Assembly (NCBI GenBank): GCA_009917695.1 | Contig: JAACJG010000002.1 | Coordinates: 310,001 to 374,000, forward strand | Reading direction: 5' to 3' | Source of the DNA: Candidatus Rifleibacterium amylolyticum | GTDB taxonomy: Bacteria > Muiribacteriota > Ozemobacteria > Ozemobacterales > Ozemobacteraceae | DNA: 64,000 nt | In this document: positions 2,655 to 33,066 of the stretch, piece by piece | Numbering within the stretch: the first letter of the stretch is position 1 | Layout: each line of letters starts with the position of its first letter | Program-made: the position numbers and the translations under genes | Notes under the pieces: generated by a model | Told to the model about the DNA's origin: nothing | Databases searched by the model: none | What the model saw: only the letters and a program-made list of their open reading frames with translations

Positions 2655-3731
2655 ATGGATGAGCAACTTGCCGACATTCTCAAACTCGGCCACAAGATGG
2701 GAGCTTCTGACGTACACCTGCACTCCGCAATTCCTCCGGTTTTCAGAGTGGCCGGCACTATCCAGATTTCTTCAAATCTGCCGTTGACAGATGAGGAGCT
2801 GCGACGTTTTTTTGAATCAACCGCTACTCCCACTATTCGTAGAATTTTCGAAGCCCGCAAAGACGTCGATTACTCTGTTTCTGTGCCAGGCATCAGCCGT
2901 TTCAGAGTGAACTGTTTTTTACAACAGGGGACTCTTGCCTTCGTTTTCAGGCAGATTCCATTTGAATTGCCAACAATAGATTCAGTGCAGATTCCGAGCA
3001 TAATCGTCGATTCGATTCAACGCCGACGCGGACTATTTCTACTATGTGGCCCAACCGGCTCGGGCAAGAGCACGACAATCGCAGCACTGCTACAGTTCAT
3101 CAACGAGAATTATCAGGTTCGAGTAGTTACGCTTGAAGATCCGATTGAATTTCTGTTTCGTGATGCCAAAGCAGAGTTTCTACAACGCGAACTGCGACGA
3201 GATTTCATGAGCTTTCCGGAAGCATTGCGCGGTGCTTTGCGCCAGGATCCAGATGTCATACTGATCGGAGAGATGCGTGAAGCAGAAACGATGGAACTTG
3301 CTCTTACTGCCGCCGAGACCGGACATCTCGTCATTTCGACGCTGCACGCCAGCAGCTCAGCTTCAGCCGTTGCCCGTATCATGGGTGTTTTTCCCACAGA
3401 TGCCCGCGAGTTCATACGCGACCAGCTGGCTTCTGTGCTGATAGGAATAGTCTCGCAGGCTCTGATACCAAAAAAGGATGATCCCAGCAAGCGTGTCGCC
3501 GTCAGAGAAATACTGCTCAATACGCCTGCCATGGCGAATCTGATCAGAACCGAGAAGCACGAGCAGATTCCGATTTTTCTCGAAACAGGCTCTGATATCG
3601 GCATGATCTCGATGAATGCAGCCCTTGAAGACTTGATTGTCAAAAAACTTATCTCCAGCGACCAGGCCTTTCCATACAGCCCTGAACCCGAGGCTCTCAT
3701 GACGAGGCTCGAAAGGAAAGGACTGTTATGA
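2655..3731 (+). CDS. PilT-type pilus retraction ATPase (first of two)
   Basis: 358 residues, the usual PilT length. Visible motifs are Walker A GPTGSGKST (132-140), the Asp box TLEDPIE (159-165), the Walker B region DPDVILIGEMRE (198-209), the His box TGHLVISTLH (222-231) and a version of the PilT C-terminal signature (AMANLIRTEK; family consensus AIRNLIRE). PilT hexamers at the inner face of the cytoplasmic membrane power retraction of type IV pili. GGGAG lies 9 bases before the ATG. The stop overlaps the next ATPase start by 4 bases (ATGA). Paired PilT homologues are often called PilT and PilU, but the sequence does not say which this is, so no symbol is given. Confidence 0.9.
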   Translation: MDEQLADILKLGHKMGASDVHLHSAIPPVFRVAGTIQISSNLPLTDEELRRFFESTATPTIRRIFEARKDVDYSVSVPGISRFRVNCFLQQGTLAFVFRQIPFELPTIDSVQIPSIIVDSIQRRRGLFLLCGPTGSGKSTTIAALLQFINENYQVRVVTLEDPIEFLFRDAKAEFLQRELRRDFMSFPEALRGALRQDPDVILIGEMREAETMELALTAAETGHLVISTLHASSSASAVARIMGVFPTDAREFIRDQLASVLIGIVSQALIPKKDDPSKRVAVREILLNTPAMANLIRTEKHEQIPIFLETGSDIGMISMNAALEDLIVKKLISSDQAFPYSPEPEALMTRLERKGLL

Positions 3732-23413: not shown

Positions 23414-24097
23414 ATGACGCTTCCAGTAAGGAAACACGAGGAAGAAAGGTTCACCTACGCCGATTATCTGACCTGGCCAGACGAGCAACGGTGCGAAATC
23501 ATCGACGGGCTGGTATACGACATGTCACCAGCCCCCAACACCGCCCACCAGGAATTACTATCAGAACTTTTTTATAAAATTAAGGAGTTTCTTAAGGGTA
23601 GTCCCTGTAAAGTTTTCGTAGCACCCTTTGACGTCAGGCTGGCGGAAGCGGGCGAGACATCCAGAAGCTGTTCGAATGTGGTGCAGCCCGATCTTTCGGT
23701 AATATGCGACCTTGAGAAGCTCGACGAAAAAGGATGTGTCGGAGCACCCGACTGGGTCATCGAAATTCTGTCGCCATCGACTTCATCGAAAGACCAGGTT
23801 AAGAAGCGCTATCTCTATGAAAAGCATGGCGTCAAAGAGTTCTGGCTGATTCATCCGACCGAGCGCACTGCCACGCTTTATTACCGTAAAGGCAGCAGCT
23901 TTGCGCTACAGGGAATCTACGATGAAGACGCAACTCTCAAATCACATCATTTCAAGGGATTTTCAATAAAATTCATTGAGATCCTGCCGGTTATACGGGC
24001 TGTTAAAGAAGAGCCGATGCCATATTATCCGGGCAGTGAACCTACGACTAAGACAAAAAAAGCAGCAACACGAAAAAAGGCAAAAAAAAATGAATAA
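23414..24097 (+). CDS. Uma2-family (DUF820) putative restriction-like endonuclease
   Basis: 227 residues. Uma2 signature: FTYADYLTWPDEQRCEIIDGLVYDMSPAPNTAHQ near the start, then VQPDLSVICD, GAPDWVIEILSPSTSSKD and KYLYEKHGVKEFWLIHP-like text. The PD-(D/E)xK-type residues fit (Glu in EIIDG, Asp in QPDLSV, Glu in IEILS, Lys in the following DQVKKRYLYE). ATG 23414 has AAGGAG 6 bases upstream. The Lys-rich tail (KKAATRKKAKKNE) ends in a poly-A tract that contains the proC start, an 8-base overlap. Uma2 proteins are abundant in cyanobacteria and Planctomycetes and their role is unknown; its place ahead of proline genes looks accidental. Confidence 0.82.
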   Translation: MTLPVRKHEEERFTYADYLTWPDEQRCEIIDGLVYDMSPAPNTAHQELLSELFYKIKEFLKGSPCKVFVAPFDVRLAEAGETSRSCSNVVQPDLSVICDLEKLDEKGCVGAPDWVIEILSPSTSSKDQVKKRYLYEKHGVKEFWLIHPTERTATLYYRKGSSFALQGIYDEDATLKSHHFKGFSIKFIEILPVIRAVKEEPMPYYPGSEPTTKTKKAATRKKAKKNE

Positions 24098-24890
24098 AAA
24101 AATCGCAATCATCGGTGGCGGCAATCTCGGCTCAGCCATAGCACGCGGGCTTCTCTATACAAAATCGGTCAAACCTGAGCTGATTCATGTCACCCGCCGC
24201 CGCGCCGATATGCTGGCAGGACTGGCTAACGAAGGAATTATAACCGGCAACGACAATATCTCTGCCGTAAAAAACGCAAAAATAGTGCTGCTCGCGGTTA
24301 AACCATATCAGGTCGCCGAGGTCTGCGAAGAACTCAAGGGCCATCTTGCCCGCAACGCCATTATAATCTCTCTGGCTACCGGCATCGAAAATAAGAAACT
24401 GGTCGAGCTGACGGGTGGCAAACATGCGATTTTCAGGGCCATGCCCAATACCGCTGTGGCAATCGGAGAGTCGATGACCTGTCTCGCCGCTATCAATGCG
24501 ACACCTGAGCAGGAAAAGGAAGTCGAACAGTTCTTTGCCAGACTCGGCAGCGTGCTGTTCATACCCGAAGAACTGATGGCTGGCGCTACTGTACTGGCCG
24601 CCTGCGGCATCGCCTTCGCGCTGCGCTTCATCCGCGCCGCCACTCAGGGCGGCATCGAAATCGGCTTCAGTTCAGACATGGCACTCAAAATCGCTTCGCA
24701 GACGGTCAAAGGTGCGGCTCAGCTGGTTATCGAAGGCAAAAGCCACCCCGAAGCCGAAATCGACAAGGTCACGACGCCGCGTGGCATAACTATTTCAGGC
24801 CTCAACGAAATGGAGCACCAAGGCTTCAGTTCATCACTGATCAAGGGCCTGCTCACGTCTTTTCAGAAAATCGAAAACCTCAGCAAATAG
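24090..24890 (+). CDS. proC: Pyrroline-5-carboxylate reductase
   Basis: 266 residues. Last step of proline synthesis: reduction of pyrroline-5-carboxylate with NAD(P)H. The dinucleotide-binding motif is IAIIGGGNLGSAIARGL (4-20), then VLLAVKPYQ, the conserved FRAMPNTAVAIGESMTCL, and the C-terminal signature VTTPRGITISGLNEME. ATG 24090 lies in the poly-A run at the end of the Uma2 gene, and proB follows after 9 bases. The order proC-proB-proA places the complete glutamate-to-proline pathway in one transcript. Confidence 0.95.
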   Translation: MNKKIAIIGGGNLGSAIARGLLYTKSVKPELIHVTRRRADMLAGLANEGIITGNDNISAVKNAKIVLLAVKPYQVAEVCEELKGHLARNAIIISLATGIENKKLVELTGGKHAIFRAMPNTAVAIGESMTCLAAINATPEQEKEVEQFFARLGSVLFIPEELMAGATVLAACGIAFALRFIRAATQGGIEIGFSSDMALKIASQTVKGAAQLVIEGKSHPEAEIDKVTTPRGITISGLNEMEHQGFSSSLIKGLLTSFQKIENLSK

Positions 24891-24899
24891 CCCGCCAGC

Positions 24900-25976
24900 A
24901 TGTATAGATCAATCACCGTAAAAATTGGCTCAAACGTGTTGACCAGACCTGATCGCAAGCTCGACCTCGAGCGCATTTCGCACATTACCGATCAGATCGC
25001 GACTCTGCACAAGCAGGGAATAAAGGTAATTCTGGTTTCTTCCGGCGCTGTTGCATCTGGGCGCGGCATGGTGACTCATCTGCCGAAAAAAGACCCGGTT
25101 TCTGAACGCCAGCTTTTATCGTCGGTCGGGCAGATCAAGCTGGTTTCGACCTATGCTTCGCTGTTCGAGGCACATGGCATAACCTGTGCGCAGGTGCTCG
25201 TGACCAAAGAAGACTTCAGAACCCGCGAGCATTATCTGAACATGAAAAACTGCCTGACCACGTTGCTCGAGCACAAAATAGTGCCGATCATCAACGAGAA
25301 CGACGCAGTGTCGGTAACCGCGCTGATGTTCACCGATAACGATGAACTGGCAGGTTTGGTAGCAACAATGATGAACACCGAAGCATACTTCATTCTCAGC
25401 AATGTCGATGGCATTTACACCGGCAACCCAGGCGACGAAGGCGCACGGCTCATCAGAGAAATAGCTGGCACCACAACCGACCTGTCAGGCTTTATTACCG
25501 CGAAAAAGAGCAACTTCGGGCGCGGCGGCATGCTGACCAAAGGTCGCGTGGCGCAAAACACCGCAGCGGCTGGCATTGCCGTGCATATCGCCAACGGCAC
25601 CCGCCCCAACATTCTCATCGACCTTGCCAGAAACAGCGAAAAAATTGCACATACCAGATTCGTTCCAGGTGCGCCACGACCGGCCTTCAAGAAGTGGATA
25701 GCCTGCTCGGCCGACTTCACAAGCTGGGAAGTTCACATCAACAAAGGCGCCAGCGATGCGCTGCATTCAAAAAGAGCGACCAGCCTGCTGTTGGCCGGCG
25801 TTACCAGCATGCAGGGTGACTTTAAAAAGGGTGATCTGTTGCGCATTATCGATCACGAAAAACGCCTGATCGGCATCGGCAAGGCCCAGTATGACCGTCA
25901 GAAAGCCAATGAGCACCTTGCCGACCCCAAATACAAACCACTGGTGCATTATGATTATCTCTATCTCTTTCCTTGA
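24900..25976 (+). CDS. proB: Glutamate 5-kinase with C-terminal PUA domain
   Basis: 358 residues, the length of two-domain enzymes. The amino-acid kinase domain has VKIGSNVLT, VILVSSGAVASGRG, NENDAVSV, FTDNDELAGLVATMMN and the lysine-bearing GRGGMLTKGRVAQ. The C-terminal third (ASDALHSKRATSLLLAGVTSMQGDFKKGDLLRI) is the PUA domain. The enzyme phosphorylates glutamate as the committed and normally proline-inhibited step. Middle gene of proC-proB-proA, 6 bases from proA. Confidence 0.95.
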   Translation: MYRSITVKIGSNVLTRPDRKLDLERISHITDQIATLHKQGIKVILVSSGAVASGRGMVTHLPKKDPVSERQLLSSVGQIKLVSTYASLFEAHGITCAQVLVTKEDFRTREHYLNMKNCLTTLLEHKIVPIINENDAVSVTALMFTDNDELAGLVATMMNTEAYFILSNVDGIYTGNPGDEGARLIREIAGTTTDLSGFITAKKSNFGRGGMLTKGRVAQNTAAAGIAVHIANGTRPNILIDLARNSEKIAHTRFVPGAPRPAFKKWIACSADFTSWEVHINKGASDALHSKRATSLLLAGVTSMQGDFKKGDLLRIIDHEKRLIGIGKAQYDRQKANEHLADPKYKPLVHYDYLYLFP

Positions 25977-25982
25977 GCGTTC

Positions 25983-27248
25983 ATGAAAGGCATGGAAACA
26001 ATGACAACAGGTGAACAGCTGATCAGAGCCCGAGAGGCCACGCGTCTGATGGTCAGAGTCGATGAAGACTGCAACCGCAGGGTGCTGCTCGATCTGGCTG
26101 ACCGGGCCGAAAAGAATATAGATCGCCTGCTGGCGGCCAACCGCCTCGATCTTGAGCGCATGCCGACGACAGACCCACGCTACGATCGTCTCATGCTTAC
26201 GACTGATCGCATCAAAGCCATCGCCAATGACCTGCGCAACGTTGCTGCCATGCATTCTCCAGTCGGAGAGGTTCTTGAAGAGCGCACCATGCCGAATGGT
26301 CTGCATCTTAAAAAGATCCGTGTTGCGCTGGGCGTTGTCGGCGTCATCTACGAAGCCCGGCCAAATGTCACTTTTGATGTTTTCGCTCTCTGCTTTCGAA
26401 CCGGCAATATCTCGGTGCTCAAAGGCGGCCAGGATGCAGCTCATTCTAACGAAGCGATAACCGCGCTGATTCACGAAAGTCTTGCGGCCGGCGGCATTGC
26501 GCCCGACGTGGTGCAGCTACTGCCGCCACAACGTGAGGCGGCTGCCGAACTGATGAACGCGGTCGGTCTCGTCGACGTGCTGATTCCGAGGGGTTCGCAG
26601 GGGTTGATCGATTCGGTGCGTAACGGCTCGAAAGTGCCGGTGATCGAGACCGGAGCCGGCGTCTGCCATACTTACTTCGACACTGACGGCGATCTCGAAC
26701 TCGGCCGAAAAGTAGTATTCAATGCCAAGACGCGCCGGGTAAGCGTCTGCAACGCACTTGAATGTCTTATCGTCAACAGCTCACGCCTCAGCGAACTTTG
26801 CGATCTGGTCGCGCCGATGGCTGACAAATCAGTTGTTCTTGAAGCCGATGAACGTTCATATCAGGCACTGAGCGGCAAATATCCCGGCGACCTGCTATCT
26901 GCAGCCAGCGAAAAATCTTTTGGCAGAGAACATCTCGACTATCGCCTGTCGATCAAGACTGTTGACAGCCTCGATGAAGCTATGGAACATATCGCACGTT
27001 ACGGCACCCGCCACAGCGAAGCAATAATTACCGGCAACCGGCAGACCAGCGCGAGATTTTGTAAAGAAGTCGATGCCGCCGCGGTCTACGTTAATACTTC
27101 GACTGCCTTCACCGATGGCGCGCAATTCGGCATGGGCGCCGAAATCGGCATCAGCACGCAAAAGCTGCACGCACGCGGCCCGATGGCGCTTCCCGAACTG
27201 ACCAGCTACAAATGGCTGATCGACAGCGAAGGCCTTACCCGCCCCTGA
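25983..27248 (+). CDS. proA: Gamma-glutamyl phosphate reductase
   Basis: 421 residues, as expected for ProA. Aldehyde-dehydrogenase-type landmarks: [54 protein letters not shown], the catalytic cysteine in [28 protein letters not shown] and [20 protein letters not shown]. It reduces gamma-glutamyl phosphate to glutamate semialdehyde. ATG 25983 has no clear ribosome site; ATG 26001 (seven codons in) is preceded by GGAA and GAAAGG and may be the true start. Last gene of the proline operon; it converges on the next gene with a gap of 6 bases. Confidence 0.94.
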
Positions 27249-27254
27249 CCGCCT

Positions 27255-28025
27255 TCATCCGGTGCCCTCGTTCCGGTTGTAACCCGGTACAGGTGGTTTT
27301 TTTCTGGCAAGATAAACCGCGAGTATGATCATGCCAAAATAAGCCATTGGCAGGGTCAAAACAATTGCCTTCCCAACCAGAATCAGAAGACCATAAGGTT
27401 CAGGCTCCTGTTCACGCATTCTGATACTGAGAACATAATGCTTTCCAGAAGGCACTCCCGGCGAAGCGACTTCGACCAGATAAGCCTGCCCGGGCTGCAA
27501 ACCGGCATAAACCAATTGTAGATGTCCGCCCTTTTCCTGCTCATCGCGCTTTACTGGCTTATAATCAGCGGGGCTGCTGTTATTGAGAATCTCGTCACCA
27601 CGCTGGTTATAAACCTTCAAGATCGGGTATTCATCGGCATCAGTCACTACCCTGAAATTGTAAAGAGCATAACCATGTTTAACGTTCACCAACCAGCGAT
27701 CTGGTTCAGAGCGCAAAGGCTGTCGCTTTGTCATGTGCATAAACGCGCGGGCATTGTACTTTTCGAGAAGGTCGACATCGACCAGCTGAAATTCGGTCGG
27801 CAGCTGCCCGGCGAACTCAGCGACTTCCCGGCCCAAAGGCAATTGATGGTAGCCATACACAGCAAAAACTGTTGCGTAGACGACCATGAGAAAAGCGGCC
27901 AACAGATAGAGTTTGAACAGAAAAGTTGCAGGCTTGGCCCGCTCGGGGTCATATTTGTTCTGCAGCTTGTTTATGCGTTCTTCAGCCGACTTTTTGACAA
28001 ATTCGTTGAGAGACTCTGGTTGCAT
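27255..28025 (-). CDS. Membrane protein with extracytoplasmic beta domain, unknown function
   Basis: 256 residues. A charged N-terminal region (KKSAEERINKLQNKYDPERAK), one membrane helix (LFKLYLLAAFLMVVYATVFAVYG), an extracytoplasmic domain of about 150 residues (WLVNVKHGYALYNFRVV, YPILKVYNQRGDEIL, LQPGQAYLVEVASPGVPSGKHYVLSIRM), then a second membrane helix (LLILVGKAIVLTLPMAYFGMIILAVYLA). The middle reads as a jelly-roll-like pre-peptidase or fibronectin-like fold. ATG 28025 follows AGGAG at 6-7 bases. It stands alone. No family recognised. Confidence 0.7.
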   Translation of the reverse strand: MQPESLNEFVKKSAEERINKLQNKYDPERAKPATFLFKLYLLAAFLMVVYATVFAVYGYHQLPLGREVAEFAGQLPTEFQLVDVDLLEKYNARAFMHMTKRQPLRSEPDRWLVNVKHGYALYNFRVVTDADEYPILKVYNQRGDEILNNSSPADYKPVKRDEQEKGGHLQLVYAGLQPGQAYLVEVASPGVPSGKHYVLSIRMREQEPEPYGLLILVGKAIVLTLPMAYFGMIILAVYLARKKPPVPGYNRNEGTG

Positions 28026-28094: not shown

Positions 28095-29213
28095 TCAGCT
28101 GCGTTTATGGGTAAAAACTGATGCAGCCGGAACCGACTGAAGCACCCAGCTTTTTTCGGGGCCGGCGGCAGCTGTTTCACTCAAAGCCTGCAGGAGAGGT
28201 TTTTCCATCGCGGCTGGCACGCAGAGGATTCCGCGTTCACAGGAAACGCTTCTGCCGGCTTCGCTTCCCTGCATGTATGAAGTGCGCACCCGCGACACGG
28301 TGGCGCCAGCAGCTCCAGCCTGCATTGCAGCCTCAACCAGGCTGTCACCCATTTCTTCATGGCAGAAGAAGGTAATTTCGCGATGACTAAAACTGGCCGC
28401 AGCTCCGTTGCTGGAAATGTCTTCGACGCCAAAAAAACGTTTACGCCATGCCGTATTCTTCTTAAGATCATCGATGGCGGCTATGATCTGCTCTATGCTT
28501 GCAGCATGTTCCTGACGGCCAATGCGCAGCAGAGGATCGACGATTCCGGCTTGAACTGGCGTCTGGTACAAAAATCCGCCACCTGGCCTGTCAACGTGCC
28601 CCTCTTCGATGAGAAGACGCTGAAGGCCATTAGCATCATGACCCGGCACCATCAGATAAACCATCTCTTTTTCCGGCGAAATGGTAATGCGCAGTAAACC
28701 GAGGCGATCGCGAATCCCGGTGCCGATGCCGAGACCCACAACCGGAACTCCCGCTCCCAGTTTGAGAGCAACTTTATAAAGATTTTCACCACCGCCCGAC
28801 TTTGTCTGAATGCCGGTTATCAGCGTAAGATCTTTCAGCAGCCATTCTGATTTCACCTGCTCTAATTGAAGATCCGGCAGAACACGCTGACTTATTTCGC
28901 TGACATCCTGGGCATAGATGGCGCCGCGCCCGGGAGTTCGCAGTTCGAGCCCCTCAATAAGACGACAAAGCAACGGAGCGGCCAGCTCACGCTTCACGGT
29001 CAGGCGATATATTTCACTGGCTGCATCACTGAACCCCATCCGCAGGCCAGACAGGCCCCAAAAACCGGCTCTTACGTTCTGCCTGACACATCTGGCGTTT
29101 TCTACCAGAACCGCCGGTATGCCAAGCGCTGTGAACAATTCGACGACCCTGCCGCTGAGACCGTGATGAGTCATCAGGGTTATGCGTGCGGCTTCGCGCG
29201 GTTCAAACTGCAT
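28095..29213 (-). CDS. PII-like (GlnB-fold) multidomain partner of the DUF1538 protein
   Basis: 372 residues from ATG 29213 (GGGAGG 6 bases upstream), overlapping the DUF1538 gene by 11 bases. At least three segments look like diverged PII modules: residues about 10-125 (ARITLMTHHGLSGRVVELFTALGIPAVLV ... GRGAIYAQDV), 130-255 (DLTLITGIQTKSGGGENLYKVALKLG ... GGGFLYQTPVQ) and 285-372 (REITFFCHEEMGDSLVEAAMQAGAAGATVSRV ... ERGILCVPAA). The G-x-G-[FAI]-[IL]-Y pattern ending each of the first two is a PII hallmark. DUF1538 membrane proteins are often accompanied by single PII-like genes, so this is probably a fused regulator. No ligand can be inferred. Confidence 0.7.
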   Translation of the reverse strand: MQFEPREAARITLMTHHGLSGRVVELFTALGIPAVLVENARCVRQNVRAGFWGLSGLRMGFSDAASEIYRLTVKRELAAPLLCRLIEGLELRTPGRGAIYAQDVSEISQRVLPDLQLEQVKSEWLLKDLTLITGIQTKSGGGENLYKVALKLGAGVPVVGLGIGTGIRDRLGLLRITISPEKEMVYLMVPGHDANGLQRLLIEEGHVDRPGGGFLYQTPVQAGIVDPLLRIGRQEHAASIEQIIAAIDDLKKNTAWRKRFFGVEDISSNGAAASFSHREITFFCHEEMGDSLVEAAMQAGAAGATVSRVRTSYMQGSEAGRSVSCERGILCVPAAMEKPLLQALSETAAAGPEKSWVLQSVPAASVFTHKRS

Positions 29214-31281
29214 GCGTTTCCTCCCTGTCTGCCTCAAGAATCTCGCGCTGTCGCCTCTGCACCATAATGCCATAGACAAGCATTGTCAAAATTGGAAAAA
29301 CCGACGCCATGGCAACAATGCCAAAACCGTCAATAACATTGAGCCCACCACCAATACCCAGTCCCATTGCCAGAATGAGCGGCACTGTTATCGGCCCGGT
29401 GGTGACTCCGCCTGAGTCCCAGGCGATGCTGGCGAAGTCATCTTCGCTGAACCAGGTAAGAACAAGCACTGCCAGGTATACAGGAATAAGCAGCCAGATA
29501 ACAGAAAAGTTGTAAAGAATTCGAGAAACGCCGGCAAGAAGACCGATGCCAACACCCAGCGACACTGTGCGAACCACGCCGACGCGAGTCACCATGCCAA
29601 CCGTCAGTTCTTCAACCGTAGCGCCGAGCGCACTGAGAGATGGTTCAGCCACAGTCGAGCCATAGCCCATGCCAAATGCAAATATAAAAACCAGCGCAAT
29701 GCCAACCAGCGTTAATTCAGGTCCGAATAATGGCGGACGTTCAACGATGTGCTCGTATCTCCGATTTACAGCATCATAACGCTCAGACTCGAAAGGAACC
29801 GGGCGTGGGGTGCCGGTTCGATCCTTGAAATAGAAGAAACGACCAGCTTCACCATTCTGATTAAAAGCGGTCAAAACGCTTTCAGGCTCGAACGGTTCGA
29901 GAATGACTCTGCCCTCTTCGTGAGTCTCGCTCCTGAATACCTGCGGAAGCGGCCGGCCAACCTGATCGCCAAGCGGAGCCAGACCGAGCCTGATGCCGCT
30001 GGTTAAAATCGCCATACCGACAAGTGCAAACACGATTCCGAGAACAACCTCATCAGGTCGTCGTGGTCGATCTCGCAACAATACAAGAAGAACGATCACA
30101 AGCAGCAATACCAGCGGAATAATGGCTCTTACGGCGAGCCCTGACTCGTTTTTCACGACTTTGGCAAAATCGCTGTTGTTCGCTTGTTTAGCTTGGTTCG
30201 GCAAAACTTTTATAGCAGCCACAGTCGCCCGCTCATGCGACGAAGCCCGCTGTGAAAGCCATTCCTGCAGTGACATACTACCGAGCAGTTCTCGGCGCCG
30301 TTCTTGATCTGCCAGAGAATGCAACGCAGCAGCATATTTTTCTTCGCTGCCATAACAAGCGCGGCGGGCAGCTTCGTCGCCGCGTTGAAACGCAATGGCT
30401 GCCAGTTTTTCTTCGGAGGGCACCAGTTTGAGGGCATTACTGCGGTTCGCCGGTGCAAAAAAATCGGCAATTGATACAGGCTGAGGTGTCGATACATTCA
30501 GATATACACCCAGCAGCATTACCGCCAATATCGGAAACAACGAAGCCAGTGTAACCACACCAAAACCAGAGGCTGTGCCGGTATTTCGGCCGGCCGAGCG
30601 ACTGATGCCGATACCCATCGCCAATACCAGCGGAACAGTGACCGGCCCGGTGGTGACGCCGCCGGTATCCCAGGCGAGATTGATTATTCCGGCCAGGTTG
30701 GGGTCGCGCGCAAACCATACAGAAAGCCCCAGAAGCAGCGGAACCATGGTAAAGATAAAAGGCCGAATCGATATGCCAAAATGAAAACGCGCCATACCGA
30801 AGGCAACTGCTACGCCGACTCCGGCGCCAACAGCCATTACCAGACCGTTTGTTTCGAGCTCAAGCAGGCGAAACAGCAGAGGTGTTCCCCAGGGGGTTAC
30901 GGTTATGCCGGCGAGCCTGAGCGATGCGATAGCTGGCTCAGCCAGCGTTGCCCCCACCCCCAGCAGCAGGCCAAAAAACATAATGACTGCGATATTGCAG
31001 CGCTGTGGCAGCTGCAACCCGACTCTTTCGCCAAGAGGCATCAGACCGAGAAATAGTCCTTCGAGAAAAAAAGCAAGTCCGAGCACAACCATGCCAATAC
31101 CTGCTGAAAGCTGGAGCGCATTGGCAGGCGGCGTATTGAGCACCAGTATTTTAAAGGCAACGAGATAGACAATGATAAAGGCCACGGCGCGCAACTGCTC
31201 GCCGATTCTGGTTCTGGCATAGTTCCAGATCATTGGCAGAGCTGTACCTATTGGAATTTTTATGCGTCTGGGCCGGGCCAT
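29203..31281 (-). CDS. DUF1538 membrane protein with two DUF1538 repeats
   Basis: 692 residues, about 14 membrane segments. Two homologous halves each carry LGLMPLG or LGLAPLGDQVGRPLPQ, a G..ATLAEPA / GSTVAEPSLSALG motif and the signature DTGGVTTGPVTVPLVLAMGIGI / DSGGVTTGPITVPLILAMGLGI. The halves are joined by a hydrophilic region of about 90 residues (ANRSNALKLVPSEEK...). DUF1538 proteins are predicted transporters of unknown substrate. ATG 31281 has AAGGTG 6 bases upstream; a longer frame to 31350 lacks a ribosome site. First gene of a two-gene operon with the PII-like protein. Confidence 0.88.
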   Translation of the reverse strand: MARPRRIKIPIGTALPMIWNYARTRIGEQLRAVAFIIVYLVAFKILVLNTPPANALQLSAGIGMVVLGLAFFLEGLFLGLMPLGERVGLQLPQRCNIAVIMFFGLLLGVGATLAEPAIASLRLAGITVTPWGTPLLFRLLELETNGLVMAVGAGVGVAVAFGMARFHFGISIRPFIFTMVPLLLGLSVWFARDPNLAGIINLAWDTGGVTTGPVTVPLVLAMGIGISRSAGRNTGTASGFGVVTLASLFPILAVMLLGVYLNVSTPQPVSIADFFAPANRSNALKLVPSEEKLAAIAFQRGDEAARRACYGSEEKYAAALHSLADQERRRELLGSMSLQEWLSQRASSHERATVAAIKVLPNQAKQANNSDFAKVVKNESGLAVRAIIPLVLLLVIVLLVLLRDRPRRPDEVVLGIVFALVGMAILTSGIRLGLAPLGDQVGRPLPQVFRSETHEEGRVILEPFEPESVLTAFNQNGEAGRFFYFKDRTGTPRPVPFESERYDAVNRRYEHIVERPPLFGPELTLVGIALVFIFAFGMGYGSTVAEPSLSALGATVEELTVGMVTRVGVVRTVSLGVGIGLLAGVSRILYNFSVIWLLIPVYLAVLVLTWFSEDDFASIAWDSGGVTTGPITVPLILAMGLGIGGGLNVIDGFGIVAMASVFPILTMLVYGIMVQRRQREILEADREETHAV

Positions 31282-31403: not shown

Positions 31404-31602
31404 ACCGCCAGGACCCAATAAAAATTAGTTTCAGCACGCCTATTAGCATTGCCACAAAAAATTACGGGTTGAAGCATCGGCAAAAATAGTGTTAGTCTAT
31501 TTCAGACCCATCATTTTGTCATCGGCCAGTGCCTTTTCAGGCACACCCAATCGCAGAAGCGAAATTTTACCGGCCAGACAAATCTCTTTCTGGAGGCTGC
31601 CA
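31404..31602. other. Remainder of a 320-base divergent intergenic region
   Basis: Between the DUF1538 promoter and the symporter start. The plus strand has TTGAAG (31469-31474) 18 bases before TAGTCT (31493-31498), a weak candidate symporter promoter. No hairpins or genes are evident. An open frame from 31489 into the symporter is a 5' extension without a ribosome site. Confidence 0.35.
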
Positions 31603-33066
31603 ATGTCGCTTTTAGACTATCTCATTTTTGCCGCCTACATGGCTTGCGTGCTTGGAATCGGCATTTACCACTTTCTCAGAAATAAGGATCGCGAAGATTA
31701 TTACGTCGGCGGGCGCTCGATCGACCCCAAATATGTTGGACTTTCGATTGTAGCAACGGATGTCGGCGGCGGCTTTTCCATCGGCCTGGGCGGAGTTGGT
31801 TTTGCCATGGGCCTTTCCGGCAGCTGGCTGCTGTTTACCGGTCTGCTTGGCGCCTGGCTGTGCGCCGTTCTGATTATTCCAAGAATCAAACGCATCGATG
31901 TGAACAAGTCATTTTTGACTTACCCTGACTTTCTGCGTGACCGCTACAATCAAAGCGTTGCAGTAACCGCTGCCCTGATTTCCGGAATCGGCTATCTTGG
32001 CTTTGCCGGCGCACAAATGCTGGCTGGTGCCAAACTGGCTTCTGCCACCATCTTGCAGAGCAACCCTCTCGGCATGGAGCCAATGACCTTTTCATTGATG
32101 ATTATTGCTGTAGTCACCATACTTTACACCGTTCTCGGCGGGCTCAAGGCAGTTATCTACACCGATGCCGTCCAGTGGGGCGTTTTGCTGGGCGGTCTCG
32201 TTCTGATTACCATTCCGGCAGCGTTATACGAAATCGGTGGTTTTCAGGCCCTCAAAGCCGGACTGCCTGCTGAATTCTTCACTCTCACCAATCTCAGCTG
32301 GGTGCAGTTTTTTAACTGGATGATCACTATCGTTCCGATCTGGCTGGTCGGCATGACGCTATATCAGCGCATGTATGCCTGCAAAGACGAAGCTGCTGCC
32401 AAAAAAGCCTGGTATATTGCCGGCATTTTTGAATACCCGATAATGGCCTTTGCCGGCGTTTTTCTCGGCATGTGCGCGCGGCTGGTGTTTCCTGATGCCG
32501 AAGCCGAAATGGCTCTGCCAATGCTGATAAGAGATGTGTTGCCAGCAGGTGTGGCAGGCATAGTCATAGCATCCTATTTTTCGGCAATCATGTCGACGAG
32601 CGACAGCTGCATGATGGCTGCTTCCGGCAACTTTCTCAACGACATCCTTGAACAATTCTGGCTGACCTCAGACAAAGATAAAGAATCGGTGAGATACTCG
32701 ATGCTGATAACTCTTATCGTAGGCGTTCTTGCGGTTTTGCTGGCCTCGCAGTTTACCATGGTGCTCGACGCCGTTCTCTATGCCTATGCGTTCATGGTTG
32801 CCGGTCTTTTCATACCCACCCTCGGCGCTTACTTCTGGCCGCGGGGAAGCTGTAAAGGAGCTCTTGCAGCCATGATCGGCGGTGGCGTCGTCACTCTGCT
32901 GTTACAGCTGTCTGTCATCTCACTACCCGAAAAAATCGACAAAATCGGCATTGACGCAAGCTTTTACGGCATACTCGCCGCTACCCTGTTGTATGTCTCG
33001 GGATCGCTGCTCTTTCCGGACTCTCCAAAACAGCAGCAGAATCAGTCGGAATCGCTACCGGTATAG
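31603..33066 (+). CDS. Sodium:solute symporter (SSS family)
   Basis: 487 residues with about 13 membrane helices. Family features are the start [47 protein letters not shown], the helix [22 protein letters not shown] (SSS signature GG[LMI]...I..D..Q) and the sodium-site helix [23 protein letters not shown]. The family imports sugars, amino acids, vitamins or organic acids with Na+. The substrate cannot be read from sequence. ATG 31603 follows GGAGG (31592-31596) at 6 bases. Stand-alone gene. Confidence 0.9.

Follow-up and report, generated by a model that had tools for sequence, protein, structure and literature searches.

A three-module PII protein with complementary loss of cleft residues, encoded beside a fused DUF1538 membrane protein

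The window, a 64,000-nucleotide stretch of DNA from a genome of Candidatus Riflebacteria, carries two overlapping minus-strand genes that are the subject of this analysis, and every feature located below lies on that strand. The first (29203-31281, stop codon included) encodes a 692-residue membrane protein in which two DUF1538 units of the UmpA-UmpB type are fused, and the second (28095-29213, stop codon included) encodes a 372-residue protein recognized, from its reading frame and from profiles, as a three-module PII protein. The genes overlap by 11 bases, and the putative ribosome-binding site of the PII gene, GGGAGG as read from the sequence (29220-29225), is located within the DUF1538 gene. 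The DUF1538 gene was taken to begin with the ATG at 31281; a longer frame from 31350 is also possible. In the window the pair is flanked by proC, proB, proA and an SSF symporter gene. The pro genes adjoin the pair only in L015, another gene comes next in L070, of the same genus, and none of the four was matched in the short stretches around the pair in more distant relatives. Because the flanking genes differ between relatives, a proline or osmotic-stress neighbourhood was dropped as a functional hint.

The Pfam model PF07556 (DUF1538) matches the 692-residue protein twice (E 8.2e-107). The first, UmpA-like half (30481-31233) was placed by its HMM domain, with the NCBIfam UmpA model extending over residues 26-259, and the second, UmpB-like half (29242-30174) likewise by its HMM domain, the loop inserted in it being recognized from hydropathy. 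Each half contains a version of the same motif, AWDTGGVTTGP at residues 203-213 (30643-30675) and AWDSGGVTTGP at residues 620-630 (29392-29424), which bears out the view, taken in an earlier note on this DNA, of a two-fold DUF1538 protein with a conserved DxGGVTTGP. Scores against the NCBIfam models were 193.3 bits for UmpA (cut-off 490) and 153.8 bits for UmpB (cut-off 500), so by the NCBIfam rule the two halves are homologous to UmpA and UmpB, as judged by sequence, without being equivalogs.

Evidence for PII modules in the 372-residue protein comes from searches built on relatives. Eight single PIIs of other DUF1538 loci, with no three-module protein among them, were made into an HMM. It found three consecutive copies in the chain, scoring 11.1, 52.0 and 22.3 bits, at a whole-protein E of 1.0e-26, and the same threefold arrangement in another 16 proteins about 370 residues long. 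When modules were compared profile to profile with the single PIIs of DUF1538 loci, E values of 9.3e-15, 2.6e-29 and 1.8e-17 were obtained for modules 1, 2 and 3, and controls made of reversed or column-shuffled modules reached at most 5.1% probability. A profile of the 17 three-module proteins retrieved 32 PDB sequences at E <= 1, 31 of them named PII or GlnK, the best at E 1.2e-4. Searches of the 372-residue protein by Pfam, NCBIfam, PHROGs or single-sequence PDB comparison found no PII, and no Pfam or NCBIfam model scored above its cut-off. Among three single-module relatives, PF00543 exceeded its 25-bit cut-off in two (31.7 and 37.6 bits) and gave no match for the second gene of L011; PIIs at the DUF1538 loci of three plasmids are annotated 'P-II family nitrogen regulator'. 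Module 1 is weak alone in the HMM search, with a domain E of 0.017 in the window protein and of 1.3e-9 to 0.87 across the 17, and module 2 alone reaches only 21% profile to profile against canonical GlnB/GlnK. The canonical comparison set comprised 25 rows, five of 30 being empty when cut from their loci. That three diverged PII-like segments are joined in one chain, as the earlier note had proposed, is thus confirmed by sequence comparison beyond what chance would give.

Profiles and alignment place module 1 at residues 6-112 (28878-29198), module 2 at residues 124-226 (28536-28844) and, together with a structure model, module 3 at residues 272-372 (28098-28400). An AlphaFold model of the whole chain, made with one relative, was unusable (pLDDT 34). 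Module 3 modelled alone has the correct ferredoxin-like beta-alpha-beta-beta-alpha-beta order (pLDDT 62); Foldseek returned two rows at E <= 0.001, the better one being CutA1 (E 4e-4), and VIA gave Z values up to 10.4. The check on ferredoxin-like folds therefore bears on module 3, predicted to adopt the PII/CutA fold, and modules 1 and 2 are assigned as PII modules from their profiles. Modules 2 and 3 are joined by a linker (residues 227-271; 28401-28535) with the signature AASxxQI...TxWR, which is conserved across the 17 three-module proteins and was found strongly only in them. The whole protein is under purifying selection (dN/dS 0.105 against L015), and the linker is its most constrained part (dN/dS 0.027), exceeding any cleft in this respect. 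The alignment of the linker drew on 10 of the 17 proteins.

The three modules have lost different parts of the PII ligand cleft. In the following, positions are those of canonical PII, in which Lys58 has a role in the cleft. According to an extract of PMC8395244, the cleft is lined on one subunit by the B-loop and the T-loop base and on the next by the C-loop and Thr29'. The single PIIs of DUF1538 loci keep both sides (G35 24/24, K58 20/24, G87 23/24, G89 24/24, T29 22/24). Module 1 retains the B-loop only: both glycines of its PGRG (residues 94-97; 28923-28934), G87 and G89, are present in 17/17 proteins, G35 in two, and G37, K58 and T29 in none. Module 2 has kept the B-loop/T-loop-base side, with a T-loop base GTGIR (residues 164-168; 28710-28724), a Lys58 equivalent at Lys182 (28668-28670) and a B-loop PGGG (residues 210-213; 28575-28586); G35, G37, K58 and G89 are found in all 17 proteins and G87 in 15, and T29 in two. 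Module 3 has kept the opposite side, in a GAT (residues 303-305; 28299-28307) that places the Thr29 equivalent at 305: G27 occurs in 17/17 and T29 in 16/17, G89 in seven, and G35, G37, K58 and G87 in none. T-loop length, taken as the median number of residues between positions 37 and 58, is canonical only in module 1 (21, against 20 in canonical PII), the loops of modules 2 and 3 being short (15 and 11).

By the features of canonical GlnB/GlnK (Q39, K90, R101, R103 and T-loop length) the chain is not canonical. In module 2 the canonical Q39 is replaced by R in 17/17, K90 is absent from all three modules, and R101 and R103 are absent from modules 1 and 3, the alignment of module 2 ending before them. 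Lys90, Arg101 and Arg103 are already missing in the single PIIs of DUF1538 loci, which leaves room for a ligand other than ATP or ADP, or for one that is no nucleotide at all. On one account the chain binds no ligand and serves the antiporter as a subunit for structure or assembly, its degenerate PII folds used for packing and docking only; the missing canonical phosphate-binding residues, the loss of most ligand residues from modules 1 and 3, and the tightest constraint falling on the linker rather than on a cleft are what it would lead one to expect. It is nevertheless judged unlikely, because the invariant residues of module 2 and the Thr29 equivalent of module 3 show a loss that is complementary rather than general.

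The chain is closely tied to DUF1538 genes. At 43 of the 44 DUF1538 loci examined, the start of a PII module lies no more than 163 nucleotides downstream of the DUF1538 stop codon, L084 being the sole locus without a PII; a genome with a DUF1538 match below cut-off (G204) and a plasmid match (H5, a second Methylocystis rosea record) stand outside the counts. The full-length three-module protein occurs in 17 of 381 genomes, spread over six family-level groups, adjoins a fused DUF1538 gene in every case, and was not found away from DUF1538 among the 381 genomes. Multi-module PIIs were seen at none of 10 loci with separate or single DUF1538 genes and at 29 of 33 fused loci with a PII (Fisher p = 5e-7, a descriptive value only, the counts having been entered by hand and shared descent ignored). 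A search of genome contigs with the 372-residue protein alone recovered one relative, and one of viral contigs with the 17-protein alignment gave 57 pattern matches, none confirmed as a relative. In a tree of DUF1538 proteins, built without two loci with a single DUF1538 (L073, L101) and one with an incomplete half (L042), 16 of the 17 three-module loci fall in one clade; the proteins are therefore related and do not represent 17 events. The remaining locus, L105, stands apart at nodes with support of 44 and 48. In our judgement L105 carries the same fusion, since the linker is common to it and the other three-module proteins.

A second account, also unlikely and put slightly lower than the ligand-free subunit, sees in the chain a cytosolic sensor for targets other than the antiporter, with only the operon in common. 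Canonical PIIs have a wide range of targets, and this genome yielded none of them, PF00543 matching once, at 28 bits; the three-module chain could therefore have wider roles. Against such roles stand the near-constant presence of a PII at DUF1538 loci and the invariable adjacency of the three-module protein to DUF1538, while the remaining neighbour genes vary between relatives.

The preferred explanation, given an even chance of being correct, is that the pair is an antiporter with a dedicated sensor, namely a covalent PII pseudo-trimer with one composite site at the module 2/3 cleft that sets antiporter activity. The transporter would consist of UmpA-like and UmpB-like halves joined in one chain as a cation/proton antiporter. 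Its sensor would be a covalent PII trimer, three modules per chain with the conserved linker between the second and third, in which the modules need not be identical and the work could be divided among them. Of the three clefts of such a trimer, only that between module 2, which contributes B-loop, T-loop base and Lys58 equivalent, and module 3, which contributes the Thr29 side, would have both walls. The chain therefore probably binds one ligand there, an adenine nucleotide being the likeliest candidate. How the chain seats against the fused antiporter at its cytoplasmic face would depend on the state of this one site, and with it whether the antiporter is held back or released. Bicarbonate, prompted by the SbtA-SbtB system, was dropped as a ligand, the sequence offering no pointer to it. 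A hint of c-di-AMP through diadenylate cyclase proved non-discriminating, since all 17 three-module genomes have a match (16 above cut-off) as do 11 of 14 controls.

Reading the pair as a probable PII-regulated antiporter follows from what DUF1538 pairs can do. UmpAB of Halomonas zhaodongensis is a Na+(Li+,K+)/H+ antiporter, and its ORF3-4, cloned alone in Escherichia coli, exchanged Na+, Li+ and K+ for H+, according to an extract of PMC5484666; the PII should thus regulate rather than transport. The antiporter function of DUF1538 pairs is based on this one Halomonas pair. The earlier note considered plausible a covalently built pseudo-trimer gating a transporter. The presence of exactly three modules, the complementary cleft loss and the ever-adjacent transporter speak for it, and gating is plausible given the antiporter activity of a DUF1538 pair (PMC5484666, extract) and the docking of PII proteins on AmtB and SbtA (PMC8395244 and PMC8352866, extracts). 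The modules are not equivalent, however, and with short T-loops in modules 2 and 3 it is improbable that all three would turn a long T-loop toward the membrane partner.

The same modules could instead assemble across chains, three chains forming three stacked homotypic PII trimers with nine modules in all. PII modules trimerise readily even when inserted in larger proteins, the SA1388 NIF3 protein being an example (PMC1779786, extract), but a homotypic trimer needs both cleft sides in each module and none of the three has both, and three modules per chain are just what a single closed trimer requires; this arrangement is considered improbable. That the protein is a PII-superfamily enzyme rather than a regulator, of which the SAM-AMP lyases are a precedent (PMC12255297, extract), is very improbable given its constant pairing with a transporter and the 17-protein alignment, in which no conserved catalytic-looking residue set was seen.

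The PII trimer is the textbook example of communication among three identical sites, the purpose of which is hard to test since one mutation affects all at once. A natural one-chain trimer in which two of three sites have apparently been given up would allow each site to be altered separately. More tentatively, and with somewhat less than an even chance, DUF1538 antiporters as a class may be PII-controlled, the PII trimer having been made asymmetric in several lineages by a second gene, a tandem fusion or, here, a three-module chain with a single composite site. On this view one such chain would replace graded sensing at three sites by a one-site switch acting on the fused antiporter. Tandem PIIs of two modules, present at four further loci with DUF1538s that branch far off in the tree, also count toward the dedicated-sensor reading, since they lean toward the same loss, a parallel that is partial: G89 is kept in 4/4 first modules and T29 in 1/4, with G87 lost from two of the four, and the second modules have T29 in 4/4 and G87 in 0/4, yet keep G35 and K58 in 4/4. 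The survey provides DUF1538 transporters with a probable dedicated regulator at almost all loci covered, and their control can thereby be tested directly.

Several known systems share elements of this arrangement. The single, paired and tandem PIIs of other DUF1538 loci occupy the same gene position and belong to the same PII subfamily, but have one or two modules per chain and lack the AASxxQI...TxWR linker. NifI1 and NifI2 of nitrogen fixation are unlike PII subunits acting together, although they are encoded by separate genes and their target is nitrogenase. UmpAB comprises two separate homologous DUF1538 proteins of seven predicted transmembrane segments each, both required for full activity, whereas here the halves are fused, with a 108-residue stretch between them and a 77-residue loop in the second; PMC5484666 contains no mention of 'PII' or 'P-II'. 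PII-NG proteins, defined by adjacency to a CzcABC-type RND pump (PMC7726332, extract), are set aside, the neighbour here being DUF1538. The SA1388 NIF3 protein resembles the present chain in having a PII-like domain inside a larger chain, but has one such domain per chain and requires three chains per PII trimer (PMC1779786, extract). In GlnK-AmtB, too, a PII with ferredoxin-like modules and inter-subunit clefts acts on a transporter, but GlnK assembles from three identical chains and has a canonical T-loop as well as Q39, K90, R101 and R103, in contrast to one chain with R39 in module 2 and no K90 (PMC8395244, extract). In cyanobacteria the operon of SbtA and SbtB likewise pairs a secondary transporter with a member of the PII superfamily, SbtB attaching to the cytoplasmic face of SbtA and holding AMP where adjacent subunits meet; SbtB, however, forms homotrimers whose T-loop is structured and extended, unlike the three dissimilar modules described here, two with short T-loops, and SbtA carries bicarbonate, the transporter here being DUF1538 (PMC8352866, extract). 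The conserved transporter-PII neighbourhood of these pairs recurs in the 43 DUF1538 loci with a PII. What is proposed as new, from sequence comparison, is the complementary degeneration of modules within a candidate asymmetric covalent PII of three modules beside a fused DUF1538.

The pair lies on the minus strand. One gene (29203-31281) encodes a membrane protein of 692 residues that carries two DUF1538 domains (PF07556, E 8.2e-107), and the other (28095-29213) its 372-residue partner. Translation of the two is probably coupled, since their overlap is 11 bases and the sequence GGGAGG stands six bases upstream of the second gene's start. The membrane protein is UmpA-like in its first half and UmpB-like in its second, with both matches under the NCBI cut-offs, and about seven hydrophobic stretches per half are compatible with a simple hydropathy scan, seven being the number predicted for each of UmpA and UmpB (PMC5484666). 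A search of genome contigs matched the partner over its full 372 residues, at 78% identity, to the Candidatus Riflebacteria contig HGW-Riflebacteria-1. The pair is flanked on one side by proC, proB and proA (23976-27248, plus strand), which also adjoin it at L015, another DUF1538 locus, and on the other by an SSF Na+/solute symporter (31489-33066, plus strand); at locus L070 a different gene follows the pair. Directly downstream in the window, a 256-residue protein (27255-28025, minus strand) has no Pfam or NCBIfam match.

Direct database scans of the 372-residue protein, including Pfam and NCBIfam, gave no PII match. Two genomes from the window's phylum, G025 and G035, each have a fused DUF1538 gene with two small genes after it. 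The first small gene matches module 2, which is the window protein's middle PII module (E 2.5e-11 and 6.9e-11); that of G025 reaches the Pfam P-II family at 31.7 bits (cut-off 25), and the second small gene of G025 has no Pfam match. With an HMM built from eight single-module PIIs of DUF1538 loci, the window protein and 16 others each show three modules in a row; all three are plain at L092 (29.8, 62.5 and 41.3 bits), and module 1 is weak in several of the 17 (domain E up to 0.87). In profile-profile comparison, modules 1, 2 and 3 match 24 single PIIs with 98.4, 99.8 and 98.9% probability, versus at most 5.1% for the controls (reversed modules, ten shuffled versions of each module, and the linker, a conserved AASxxQI...TxWR stretch between modules 2 and 3). 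Against 25 canonical PIIs the modules reach 92.3, 21.2 and 87.3%, and the single PIIs themselves 97.4%; module 2, at 21.2% versus canonical PIIs but 99.8% versus single PIIs, is therefore near its own subfamily and not by itself near GlnB. The earlier note's proposal of three PII-like segments in one chain beside a double DUF1538 protein is thus borne out by the HMM, the controlled profile comparisons and the PF07556 match.

Whole-chain structure prediction of the 372-residue protein yielded no usable model. A profile of the 17 proteins matched 32 PDB sequences at E <= 1, of which 31 are named PII or GlnK (best E 1.2e-4), mostly over module 1. A model of module 3 by itself, built from two sequences, shows the ferredoxin-like succession of elements with moderate confidence (pLDDT 62). 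Foldseek ranks CutA1 first (E 4e-4), with two rows at E <= 0.001, and the best 50 rows are PII, CutA, SbtB, CPII or NIF3 entries, the Thermus PII TT1020 among them; VIA on this model gave Z up to 10.4, with 95 residues and an rmsd of 3.0.

Lys58 has a part in the PII cleft, and the single PIIs of DUF1538 loci retain K58 (20/24) together with G35 (24/24), G87 (23/24), G89 (24/24) and T29 (22/24). In a PII trimer, one subunit contributes its B-loop and the base of its T-loop to the cleft and the adjacent subunit its C-loop; in one GlnK structure the neighbouring subunit supplies Thr29', Arg101' and Arg103' (PMC8395244). Module 2 retains G35, G37, K58 and G89 in all 17 proteins and G87 in 15, with T29 in only two and a proline at position 28 in every one. 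Module 3 retains G27 (17/17) and T29 (16/17), with G35, G37, K58 and G87 in none and G89 in seven. Module 1 has G87 and G89 throughout, G35 in two proteins, and G37, K58 and T29 in none. Since the two sides of the cleft are retained on different modules, both walls would meet only at the interface of modules 2 and 3. Canonical K90, R101 and R103 are absent from the single PIIs, and the module 2 alignment ends before positions 101 and 103. The idea that the three modules would pack as a covalent pseudo-trimer is well supported at the sequence level, by the modules themselves and by the complementary loss of cleft halves.

The two-module tandem PIIs of four other loci, whose DUF1538 proteins occupy a distant part of the DUF1538 tree, lean toward the same split, though incompletely. 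Their second module has T29 in 4/4 and G87 in 0/4, yet G35 and K58 in 4/4, and the first has G89 in 4/4, G87 in 2/4 and T29 in 1/4. Among nine modules of PIIs encoded by second genes, T29 is replaced in all (N in four, S in two, M in two, Y in one) and G35 and G89 are kept in all; their partner PIIs have T29 in 8/8.

Relative to L015, the window three-module gene has a dS of 1.35 and a dN of 0.14 (ratio 0.105), and by part the ratio is 0.027 for the linker, the most constrained, 0.057 for module 2, 0.111 for module 3 and 0.151 for module 1. It follows that this is a working gene, in which modules 1 and 3 are more than decaying remnants.

DUF1538 occurs in 13 of 39 genomes of the phylum, of which ten encode the three-module protein, two have a pair of PII genes and one has a lone PII. 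Across a broader set of 381 genomes, DUF1538 is matched at E <= 0.001 in 36 (above the cut-off in 35), and 17, in six family-level groups (f1, f43, f105, f107, f133 and f146), encode the full-length three-module protein; the linker is strongly matched in the same 17, and two more matches are weak and partial (E 0.001 and 0.006). Across 44 DUF1538 loci (37 regions, one with two loci, the window, L015 and four plasmid records), a PII module starts at most 163 nt from the DUF1538 stop in 43; L084 has no PII at its locus, nor does its genome by PF00543. By manual count, the ten loci whose DUF1538 genes are separate or single all have one PII module, and the 34 fused loci have one (4), two (11), three (18) or none (1). 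Seventeen of the 18 three-module loci encode a single chain, and L097 has one module plus a tandem pair. A tree of 41 loci, built on their concatenated DUF1538 halves, unites 16 of the 17 single-chain loci in a clade (UFBoot 100); L105 is placed apart from these at weakly supported nodes and nevertheless has the linker in common with the other 16.

A single DUF1538 gene and PII at L073 (1859-3966, minus strand) adjoin a YitT protein with a DUF2179 domain, and a Borrelia DUF2179 protein is predicted to be PII-like (PMC6516651). At L081 and L103 the PII gene is followed by one for a small protein that carries two CBS domains (2798-3187 and 2782-3186, respectively, both on the plus strand). In two f43 genomes the gene after the two PII genes encodes a DUF1646 membrane protein (L082, 2150-3208, minus strand; L104, 4609-5664, plus strand). 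At L145 (3294-3608, plus strand), a PII of the DUF1538-linked subfamily has other genes as neighbours, and the surrounding 7 kb yielded no DUF1538. The only PF00543 match in the window's own genome is a 96-residue PII (contig C3, 71500-71787) directly after an RND-type transporter frame, an arrangement described for PII-NG (PMC7726332).

A DUF1538 pair acts as an antiporter of Na+, Li+ or K+ against H+, an activity also seen in E. coli when only its two genes were cloned (PMC5484666), so that the PII is expected to regulate rather than to transport. In AmtB-GlnK (PMC8395244) a PII protein binds its transporter from the cytoplasmic side, and in SbtA-SbtB (PMC8352866) a PII-like protein does likewise. 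The simplest reading would be a fused antiporter restrained by a ligand-controlled PII chain. The T-loops of modules 2 and 3 are short and that of module 1 is long, so if a T-loop makes the contact, module 1 would be the better candidate.

Within the literature collection covered, a search of the main texts of the DUF1538 papers and most of the UmpAB papers for 'PII' or 'P-II' gave one match among the DUF1538 texts, inside a sequence motif, and a search for fused, tandem or multiple PII domains found no such protein. Others may have noticed the PII-DUF1538 neighbourhood, since it is visible in RefSeq annotation. What is new, as read from the sequences, is that the modules have lost complementary halves of the cleft, a pattern that partly recurs in other PIIs linked to DUF1538. 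The window pair is a variation on the PII-transporter pair rather than a system of a new type.
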